The notes under the pieces are model-generated. The model saw only the letters and a program-made list of their open reading frames with translations. It was not told the origin of the DNA and did not search any database. Shown piece after piece: positions 2,740 to 32,361 of a DNA stretch of 64,000 nucleotides. Source of the stretch: Flavobacteriaceae bacterium. Lineage in GTDB: Bacteria > Bacteroidota > Bacteroidia > Flavobacteriales > Flavobacteriaceae. Numbering within the stretch: position 1 is the first letter of the stretch; the number at the start of each line of letters is the position of its first letter. The DNA is taken from positions 12,231 through 76,230 of the forward strand of contig NZFW01000024.1 of NCBI GenBank assembly GCA_002690805.1, read 5' to 3'. The translations under genes were made by a program, and so were the position numbers.

Positions 2740-4038
2740 ATGCTTTTGGTATTTACTCCAAAATTAGCTCCAAGAATTCGATATATTTTCAACCATATTT
2801 TTTATCGTATGCTTAATTTGAAAGTTGAATTCACTAATTCGATTGAGGATTTTGTTGCTTACAATGGCCCAAAACTTAGTTATTCAAATAAGCCATTGGG
2901 TAAAGAGTTATTTTTTTTCTCTTGTCCATTTTTGATTGATCAAGGAATACATAATATTTCTGTAGATGTTTTAATTAAAAAAAAATATCCCATAATATTT
3001 CCTGTTAATCACAAATCTGCAATGGAGTTTGATATTTTTGCTGCGAGCTTTTATTTAATTAGTCGTTATGAAGAATATTTACCTCACTTAAAAGATTCTA
3101 AAGGTCGATTTCAATTACTAGAAAGTATTGCATTTAAAAATAATTTTTTGGATAAACCACTTATTGATATTTGGGTTAACGATCTTAAACTTATCATAAA
3201 TAGTAGGTTTAAAAACTTAATCAAAGAATTATATATGTCCAAAAAAATAATTCCAATATTAGAAGTTTCTGATCCTTATTTGTTTCTTCAAAAATCATTT
3301 GTTTCAACGTTGTTACAGTCTTTTAATTTAATTTGGAATCTTAAATTTAAAACTCTACTATATCAATTCTATGTATTAATTAGAATTTTCAAAGACCCCT
3401 ACATGGAGTATGATTTTTTGATTAAAACATTTAATAAGCATAAAATCAATCTTATAAGTTTTTTTAGATTTACACAACATGCTTCTGATCTTGGTGCAAT
3501 TTCTATATTTAATTATTCTTACAGATTGCTTATAAAAAATATTTCTGATCAAATTCAGTTAAGTTTGTTGGTTTCATTTTTCGGTCAAAAAAATCAAAAA
3601 GTTTTAAAAAGTGAGATGATAAACTTGACAAGATTAACAAATAGAAGCACAAAAAAAGTAAGATTAAATTATGGTATTTTATCTTTATCTGAAGTTTACC
3701 CAAATTTAGTCCAGAATGAAGTAAAAGAGGATTATAGTATGGGATACGCTGATCATATTGGTTATAGAGCAAGCACTTGTGTACCATTTTATTTTTATGA
3801 TTTAATGAATGAAGTGCAAACTCCATTAAAAATATATCCAGTAATTATTACTGAAAATGGCTTAAGAAAATTTTCAAGCAAAAAAGCTTTTTTTGAAATG
3901 AAAAAACATTATCAAATGTCTCCTCTTATTAGTTCTGTTTTTAGCTTCGCATTTTCTCCTAGGATTTTATCAAAATCTCCTGATAATTTACTATGGCGTT
4001 CTTCTTTTTTAGAATATATTAGTGAATATGAAACTTAA
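2740..4038 (+). CDS. Polysaccharide deacetylase-like protein (DUF7033-type N-terminus)
   Basis: Family-typical stretches: FDIFAASFYLISRYEEYLPHLKD.GRF, DIWV, EDYSMGYADHIGYRASTCVPFYFYDL. Confidence 0.7.
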   Translation: MLLVFTPKLAPRIRYIFNHIFYRMLNLKVEFTNSIEDFVAYNGPKLSYSNKPLGKELFFFSCPFLIDQGIHNISVDVLIKKKYPIIFPVNHKSAMEFDIFAASFYLISRYEEYLPHLKDSKGRFQLLESIAFKNNFLDKPLIDIWVNDLKLIINSRFKNLIKELYMSKKIIPILEVSDPYLFLQKSFVSTLLQSFNLIWNLKFKTLLYQFYVLIRIFKDPYMEYDFLIKTFNKHKINLISFFRFTQHASDLGAISIFNYSYRLLIKNISDQIQLSLLVSFFGQKNQKVLKSEMINLTRLTNRSTKKVRLNYGILSLSEVYPNLVQNEVKEDYSMGYADHIGYRASTCVPFYFYDLMNEVQTPLKIYPVIITENGLRKFSSKKAFFEMKKHYQMSPLISSVFSFAFSPRILSKSPDNLLWRSSFLEYISEYET

Positions 4039-30804: not shown

Positions 30805-30878
30805 GGCCCAGTAGTTCAACTGGATAGAATATCAGATTTCGGCTCTGAGGGTTAGGGGTTCGAATCCTCTCTGGGTCA
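30805..30878 (+). tRNA. tRNA-Arg (anticodon TCG), CCA not encoded
   Basis: GGCCCAG/CTGGGTC acceptor, GTTC/GAAT D-stem, TCAGA-TTTCGGC-TCTGA anticodon arm, AGGGG-TTCGAAT-CCTCT T-arm. Confidence 0.93.
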
Positions 30879-30946
30879 CAATTTCAAAGAAATATTTATA
30901 GAGTTTTTTAATTATGTTTACATCCACTTTATTAGTAAAAATAAAT

Positions 30947-31159
30947 TTAGGGCAGATCAAATAAGTCTTCTACTTTACAACCAAGTGTTTTTGCGATTTT
31001 TAATGCTAAAACTGTTGATGGAACATATATTCCATTTTCAATGGCATTAATACTCTTTCTTGATACCTCTGCAGCAACAGATAAATCCTGTTGAGTTAAA
31101 TTTGCAGATTTTCTAAATTCTTGTAAATTATTTATAAGTTTTTTATGATTTTTCCCCAA
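30947..31159 (-). CDS. Small XRE/Cro-CI HTH transcriptional regulator
   Basis: LQEFRKSANLTQQDLSVAAEVSRKSINAIENGIYVPSTVLALKIAKTLGCKVEDLFDL. Confidence 0.92.
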   Translation of the reverse strand: MGKNHKKLINNLQEFRKSANLTQQDLSVAAEVSRKSINAIENGIYVPSTVLALKIAKTLGCKVEDLFDLP

Positions 31160-31162
31160 AAC

Positions 31163-31558
31163 CTACTTTTTTTCAAAATCATCAACAGCATCGGTTAGTT
31201 CTTTACCTGTATTGGGATAAAGGTATCCTGCTATCAAAGTTCCAATACCTATTAAACAAACTAAAGCCCCAACACCTTTTAAAATTTGACCAATTGCTAA
31301 ATATCCAAATAGATAGAGCCCAAGACCTACAAAAATTGTAATAACTCCATTTCTACGATAATCAATGGGTTCTTTTTTTCTTTCTTCAAAAATTTTAAGT
31401 AATTCTTCAATTTTATCAGAATTATCTAAATTTTTTGATATTTCTAGTACAGTTTCTCTTTTATCTTTTCCTTCATAATAAAGCCAGATAAATACAGCAA
31501 CTGGTATTATGATTCCTGTAATCATCCCGAAAATTGGTATTATAATATTTTGATCCAT
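31163..31558 (-). CDS. Two-span membrane protein (DUF6249-like), co-transcribed with XRE regulator
   Basis: N-terminal TM, linker KIEELLKIFEERKKEPIDYRRNGVITIFVGLGLYLFGYLA, second TM; 3-nt gap to XRE start. Confidence 0.7.
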   Translation of the reverse strand: MDQNIIIPIFGMITGIIIPVAVFIWLYYEGKDKRETVLEISKNLDNSDKIEELLKIFEERKKEPIDYRRNGVITIFVGLGLYLFGYLAIGQILKGVGALVCLIGIGTLIAGYLYPNTGKELTDAVDDFEKK

Positions 31559-31565
31559 AATTTAT

Positions 31566-31629
31566 ATTTTATAATGTAACGCAAACTTAACATAATTTAT
31601 AATGATAAGCAAACGTTACATTATAAAAT
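31566..31629. repeat. 16-bp perfect inverted repeat (31566-31581 / 31614-31629)
   Basis: ATTTTATAATGTAACG ... CGTTACATTATAAAAT with a 32-nt interior. Confidence 0.9.
31582..31613 (-). promoter_or_regulatory. Bacteroidota-type promoter enclosed by the inverted repeat
   Basis: Minus strand: TTTG (31613-31610) - 20 nt - TAAGTTTG (31589-31582); start codon at 31558. Confidence 0.7.
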
Positions 31630-31636
31630 TTAATCT

Positions 31637-31657
31637 ATTAATGTATTTTACATTAAT
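31637..31657. repeat. Palindrome ATTAATGTA-TTT-TACATTAAT
   Basis: 9-bp perfect arms with 3-nt spacer, between the YwaF-like stop and the promoter above. Confidence 0.8.
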
Positions 31658-31662
31658 GATAT

Positions 31663-32361
31663 TTATTTGGTTTTAGAATATAAAACTTTAGTAAAAAGAA
31701 GGTATGTTATTCCAAAAAGGATAAAAATTATCATATTAAGATAAATCAAATACATAGGCCACTCTCCAATAATTAATGGATTCTTCACATTTGGGGGCTC
31801 GTTGACATACATATAATTAGATTTTAAGAATCGATTTATGGGAATTAAAATAATCATAAGAAGATCTAAAAAAATCAATGTCCTAAGCCAAGAAAGTTTT
31901 CTAAGTTTATAGTTTAAGTAATAAAAAAGATATAGTGGAATGAGAATAATTAGTCCATGACTTAGGTAATAAATCATATATTCTAAATTACTTCCATCGT
32001 AATCATTTATTTGAGGTGTCAATATTGCAACGATACCTCCCAAAACACCTCCATAAAAATTAAACTCAAATAATTTTTTATTTTTAGTAATGAATAATAT
32101 AAAAATGCAGATTAGACTATTGATACTGCACAAGTGAAGAGGTAAGTGCTCCTTGAGACTCCATTGACCAGACTCTATATTTCCATAATGAGATACAATT
32201 GTGACTATTAATAAACAAAAACTTAAAGTTTTAGCAATAATTAAGTTTTGTTTTACACTAAAAAATTTTCCAATAAATAAAAATAAAGAAATAGAAAAAA
32301 ATGATATCAAAAAATTTCTAGTCCATTCAAAAGATAAAAATTCAATAAAATACTCTCTCAT
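31663..32361 (-). CDS. TIGR02206/YwaF-like membrane protein
   Basis: Multi-TM; EHLPLHLCSINSLICIF, FYGGVLGGIVAILTPQ, HGLIILIPLYLF. Confidence 0.75.
   Translation of the reverse strand: MREYFIEFLSFEWTRNFLISFFSISLFLFIGKFFSVKQNLIIAKTLSFCLLIVTIVSHYGNIESGQWSLKEHLPLHLCSINSLICIFILFITKNKKLFEFNFYGGVLGGIVAILTPQINDYDGSNLEYMIYYLSHGLIILIPLYLFYYLNYKLRKLSWLRTLIFLDLLMIILIPINRFLKSNYMYVNEPPNVKNPLIIGEWPMYLIYLNMIIFILFGITYLLFTKVLYSKTK

Follow-up and report, generated by a model that had tools for sequence, protein, structure and literature searches.

An operon encoding a DUF6249 membrane protein followed by a 70-aa XRE protein is preceded by a promoter whose two elements are each overlapped by an 18-bp near-palindrome, and it is very probable that dimers of the XRE protein occupy these two predicted operators (O1 and O2) and thereby obstruct the promoter, resulting in negative autoregulation of the operon. 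In the proposed mechanism one XRE dimer would sit on each near-palindrome, the general form of which is TGTWAC-sTTTGC-GTWACA; the dimer at O1 would cover the -33 element, while that at O2 would cover the -7 element together with the start site, and the bound protein would exclude RNA polymerase, thereby keeping expression of the operon low and self-limited. We infer the binding itself, its sign (repression) and the dimer stoichiometry from sequence comparisons. Autorepression by the operon's XRE protein, which was also the proposal of the initial annotation, is well supported by the presence of the sites in 75 of 81 loci, always ahead of a DUF6249-XRE pair, by their overlap with both promoter elements, by their absence elsewhere in the genomes searched and by the covariation of recognition helix and half-site among paralogs. 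The finding is sound, testable and backed by strong conservation, although its general kind is already known.

Both genes are on the minus strand of the window (the whole stretch of 64,000 nucleotides analysed here, from a marine Flavobacteriaceae bacterium). The product of the first gene (31163..31558, 131 aa) scores 50.9 bits against the DUF6249 family profile (PF19762), above the curated cut-off of 33. It had initially been described as a two-span membrane protein; instead, both hydropathy and AlphaFold2 predict three membrane helices, with the AlphaFold2 helices encompassing residues 3-42, 65-89 and 91-113 in a model of moderate quality (mean pLDDT 76.8, pTM 0.46). The second gene (30947..31159) starts with a TTG codon 3 nt past the DUF6249 stop codon and encodes the repressor candidate, a short protein that is covered over its whole length by an HTH_3 domain (PF01381, 51.9 bits, residues 12-66) with the recognition helix SRKSINAIENG. 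Its closest relative of solved structure is CylR2 (phmmer, residues 8-68, E 5e-12). This two-gene organization, a membrane protein and then a 70-aa XRE protein, was correctly recognized at the outset and is strongly conserved: when the window is taken together with 80 loci encoding relatives of the membrane protein, recovered in one genome-collection search, the XRE gene is found behind the DUF6249 gene in 79 of the 81 loci, the other two stopping at a contig edge, and the helix SRKSINA is invariant across 78 aligned XRE proteins. The gene upstream of the operon (31663-32361, minus strand) codes for an integral membrane acyltransferase-like protein of the TMEM164/TIGR02206 type (149 bits), and about 70 nt separate the stop codon of the XRE gene from the end of a convergent tRNA-Arg (TCG) gene (30805-30879, plus strand).

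Upstream of the operon, the minus strand has a TTTG (31613-31610) separated by 20 nt from TAAGTTTG (31589-31582), in accordance with the Bacteroidota sigma-A promoter, which is characterized by a TTTG at -33 (PMC6847099), a spacer of about 20 nt and a TAnnTTTG at -7 (PMC6847099, PMC9723704). These elements exactly fill the interval between the two arms of a 16-bp inverted repeat, just as had been claimed, and the further copy of CATTATAAA reported in the spacer is likewise present. In F. johnsoniae transcription starts 4-5 nt after the -7 element (PMC6847099); the same distance would place the predicted start at 31576..31577 on the minus strand and give a leader of about 19 nt. The TA and TTTG of the promoter are retained in nearly all relatives, with the -7 element across the 75 loci possessing the T in 74, the A in 74 and the TTT in all 75. 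The TTTG is directly preceded by a G in 61 of the 75 O2 sites. Promoters of F. johnsoniae hardly ever have a G in this position (PMC6847099), and the present promoter may accordingly be a weak one.

Alignment of the upstream regions of the 80 related loci, which were scanned for the site pair, recovered the two 18-bp near-palindromes in 74 of them in addition to the window, with counts of this kind over related loci overstating their independence. Both sites are seen in Flavobacteriaceae, Cryomorphaceae, Crocinitomicaceae, Cyclobacteriaceae and Balneolaceae. The predicted operator O1, TGTAAC-GTTTGC-TTATCA (31603..31620, minus strand), contains the -33 element in its core and combines a strong outer half, TGTAAC, with a weaker inner half; its consensus over the 75 loci is TGTAAC-sTTTrC-kTnnCA, with positions 3-6 and 17 being invariant. 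The predicted operator O2, TGTTAA-GTTTGC-GTTACA (31575..31592, minus strand; consensus TGTTAm-sTTTGC-GTTACA over the same loci), contains the TTTG of the -7 element in its core and covers the predicted transcription start with its outer half GTTACA. Most columns of the sites carry 1.3-2.0 bits of information as against 0.4-1.3 bits in the columns of the spacer (44 distinct rows with 28-bp spacing), and in some relatives the sites are fully palindromic, e.g. GTAAC-CTTTAT-GTTAC and TGTTAC-CTTTGC-GTTACA in L057. The six loci without the full pair lie at a contig edge, are mutated or have no site directly upstream: L029, L058 and L080 begin at a contig edge, the first of these still having CGTTACATTAA ahead of its start; in L061 the upstream region is degraded and the start codon changed; and no site was found directly upstream in L023 and L052, the latter being preceded by an apparent second DUF6249 gene.

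Two features of this alignment point to a superposition of promoter and operator. Position 4 is a T in 74 of the 75 O2 sites as opposed to an A in all 75 O1 sites, and this T is the base that the TAnnTTTG motif needs, an A in its place being predicted to break the -7 element. Further, the core of O1 has an intact TTTG in 54 of the 55 loci with a spacing of 27-28 bp between the sites versus 5 of the 20 with other spacings (Fisher p ~1e-10, or 4e-10 on distinct sequences, with related loci being non-independent). Away from the 27-28 bp spacing the G of this TTTG is usually lost while O1 stays (15 of 20 loci); the last G thus tracks the promoter, and the TGTAAC end is kept at any spacing. As the two parts of O1 behave differently in this regard, we read them as the result of two constraints overlapping on the same bases, one imposed by RNA polymerase and the other by a DNA-binding protein. 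The centre-to-centre distance between O1 and O2, 28 bp in 47 loci, ranges from 24 to 32 bp, i.e. over most of a helical turn, which makes a rigid complex of two dimers unlikely and does not support the cooperativity that was originally part of the autorepression proposal.

The retention of O1 in those loci where the G of its TTTG has been lost also implies that this site might be valued apart from the -33 element, which, along with the unequal inner halves of O1 and O2, would be consistent with an XRE protein acting both ways, such as by activation through O1 and, at higher concentration, repression through O2. However, in most loci O1 overlies the -33 element instead of preceding it, as is typical of repressor sites, and such a dual action appears unlikely. 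Simple repression by the operon's own XRE protein also has to be weighed against the binding of O1 and O2 by some other regulator, global or a paralogous XRE protein, with the operon's own XRE acting elsewhere. The same genome indeed codes for further CylR2-like XRE proteins, and the SRQ-type sites of such paralogs, TGTAAAGTTTACTTTACA, are similar to O1 and O2. Many of these paralogs, which possess an SRQ helix, are encoded behind one or two TGTAAA-N6-TTTACA dyads: A/T dyads are present in 18 of 33 SRQ loci (the other 15 being without one) and C/G dyads in 0 of 33, whereas the SRKS loci have C/G dyads in 46 of 81 and A/G dyads in 19 of 81. Shuffling would yield fewer than 0.5 locus for each of these counts, the paralog comparison being one of 33 loci in AT-rich genomes. 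Given that the helix (SRKS versus SRQ) and the half-site (TGTAAC versus TGTAAA) change together, the operon's own XRE protein is the likely binder of O1 and O2. A Lys for a Gln opposite a G:C for an A:T is the usual recognition chemistry, and this might be what distinguishes SRKS from SRQ. The invariance of the SRKS helix alongside the C/G half-site, the A/T sites that the SRQ paralogs have for themselves, and the recovery of the site, in the own genome and 14 relatives, at this operon alone, with which it moves amid changing neighbors, render the involvement of another regulator quite improbable.

The inverted repeat that first drew attention to this region is genuine, with its arms, ATTTTATAATGTAACG (31566-31581) and CGTTACATTATAAAAT (31614-31629), being perfect reverse complements of 16 bp placed 32 nt apart. 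It is the longest among the perfect inverted repeats with a gap of up to 60 nt in the window, and none of 60 shuffled versions of the window (first-order Markov) contained one of this length. Nevertheless, the arms as such are not the binding unit they were taken to be: in each of them TGTAAC/GTTACA alone is conserved, and this forms the outer half of one 18-bp operator, such that just TGTAACG of the left arm (31575-31581, plus strand) falls in O2 and just CGTTACA of the right arm (31614-31620, plus strand) falls in O1. Accordingly, the alignment of relatives that had been suggested as a check on the arms upheld this part, whereas their outer AT-rich bases vary, and the 16-bp match is therefore partly a local accident atop a conserved core of 6-7 bp. 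A second palindrome, ATTAATGTA-TTT-TACATTAAT (31637..31657), does exist with the 9-3-9 structure ascribed to it, but it is ordinary in the window, which has about ten other palindromes with perfect arms of at least 9, and it did not turn up ahead of the operon in relatives; hence it was rejected as an additional site and is judged to lie outside the system. A promoter between inverted repeats is the anatomy of invertible Bacteroidota promoters, as in the Bacteroides capsule loci, and the layout observed here in a Bacteroidota genome would in principle fit a phase-variable promoter that a recombinase flips between the repeats. However, the promoter faces the operon in all 75 site pairs, on which account we dismiss this as extremely unlikely; moreover, the enclosed segment is merely about 32 bp, no recombinase was recognized among the shared neighbors and the arms are unconserved outside TGTAAC/GTTACA. 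A role for the self-pairing capacity of the 16-bp repeat in an RNA or DNA secondary structure (hairpin or attenuator) is scarcely credible, as most of the repeat precedes the predicted start and is expected to remain untranscribed, the site sequence rather than the arm pairing is conserved, with the outer arm bases varying freely, and Rfam matched the neighboring tRNA alone, on which an RNA element was rejected.

The operon with its predicted sites also appears to be self-sufficient. No further site within one mismatch was found in the same genome, a 1.38-Mb draft (74% complete) searched by pattern, in which a target might have been missed, and in 14 relatives the sites within one mismatch were those of the module alone. 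Weaker matches in these 14 relatives, some of which are SRQ-type sites, are about as common as those of a reversed-pattern control; a wider regulon was thus rejected, with none emerging above this control in the own genome or the 14 relatives. The gene pair alone is common to the loci, any other neighbor being present in at most 13 of the 81, and since the neighboring genes differ while the pair persists, DUF6249-XRE and the putative operators constitute a self-contained module. Among 100 genomes searched, 5 have a match to the membrane protein, one of these being the own genome. The distribution of the module is patchy, given that the composite site was recovered in just the own genome among 396 genomes across the phylum. 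Outside the flavobacteria, two Balneolaceae loci (L068 and L071) carry the same operon and operators, which suggests transfer of the whole module. In a genome of the same genus (locus L005, genome G005) both operators are intact, whereas the DUF6249 gene is truncated and lacks its start codon, and its surroundings yielded no XRE protein carrying the usual recognition helix; it looks like a decaying copy. A phage origin was rejected, as IMG/VR yielded no relative.

With respect to the membrane protein, DUF6249 genes from several families elsewhere in the class (L168-L174) have a gene for an ECF-type sigma factor in their vicinity, at a distance of up to about 1.5 kb in the six loci scanned by Pfam. 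These neighborhoods resemble the present one in placing the same membrane family near a transcription regulator and differ in that the partner is a sigma factor instead of an XRE repressor candidate. As the family recurs beside transcription regulators, a sensing role for DUF6249 at the membrane is plausible. More speculatively, DUF6249 might sense something at the membrane and thereupon cause release of the XRE protein from its sites. The CylR1/CylR2 pair described below lends this coupling some plausibility by analogy, and we consider the step, the weakest of the mechanism, conceivable but somewhat doubtful. The same tentative standing applies to the closed loop as a whole, in which a membrane signal would lead DUF6249 to bind or release the XRE protein, with the operon's own promoter being the sole target of the latter. 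If true, the cell would tune the amount of the membrane protein in a single step and without a phosphorelay, using a switch that marine Bacteroidota and Balneolaceae have come to share by its spread. PADLOC gave no hit for DUF6249 and matched the XRE protein only with generic HTH models; a toxin-antitoxin or defence role was rejected, as no toxin or defence component known to this resource matched DUF6249. In the open-access literature searched, nothing was found on DUF6249 with an XRE protein or on this operator, the one paper to name DUF6249 being a plant-genomics study. DUF6249, an uncharacterized membrane family, gains a concrete regulatory context, and a directly testable pair of promoter and operators is defined, in which the operator and Bacteroidota promoter codes share the same bases. 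The two helix types, SRKS with TGTAAC and SRQ with TGTAAA, offer a natural specificity pair for XRE recognition, and the module suggests a compact part, made up of a regulator and its operators, for use in a phylum poor in such tools.

The above architecture is reminiscent of two other systems. The SRQ-type XRE operons of Flavobacteriaceae (e.g. L041, L123, L124 and L091) combine a membrane protein with a CylR2-like XRE protein, and the clear cases among them likewise have the XRE gene in last position and are preceded by a tandem pair of 18-bp sites. They differ in their half-site (TGTAAA), helix (SRQ) and membrane partners, as well as in the spacing of the sites (about 20-42 bp), which are not centred on both promoter elements. 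One of them (L091) is a second membrane-protein/XRE operon in the own genome (contig C26, ~3847-3897), with an SRQTI-type XRE protein and the site pair TGTACAGTTTACTTAACA and TGTAAAGTTAACTTAACG, 33 bp apart. In Enterococcus faecalis, CylR1, a small membrane protein with three predicted membrane helices, is encoded together with the repressor CylR2, upon which it has been proposed, though not proven, to act (PMC3709268). Common to both cases are a small stand-alone XRE protein that sits, or here is predicted to sit, on a promoter, a repressor in CylR2 and a candidate repressor here, and a co-encoded membrane protein with three helices, which in the present operon are predicted by hydropathy and AlphaFold2. 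However, CylR2 controls a divergent toxin operon, whereas the operon's own promoter is the sole target found here, with no other site within one mismatch in the own genome and 14 relatives, and with variable neighbors. As no effector target was found, full membership in a CylR1/CylR2 system is not claimed, DUF6249 being assigned by Pfam; rather, the operon would work like the CylR2 class, but by means of two sites, O1 and O2, which coincide with the -33 and the -7 element, respectively, of a Bacteroidota promoter.
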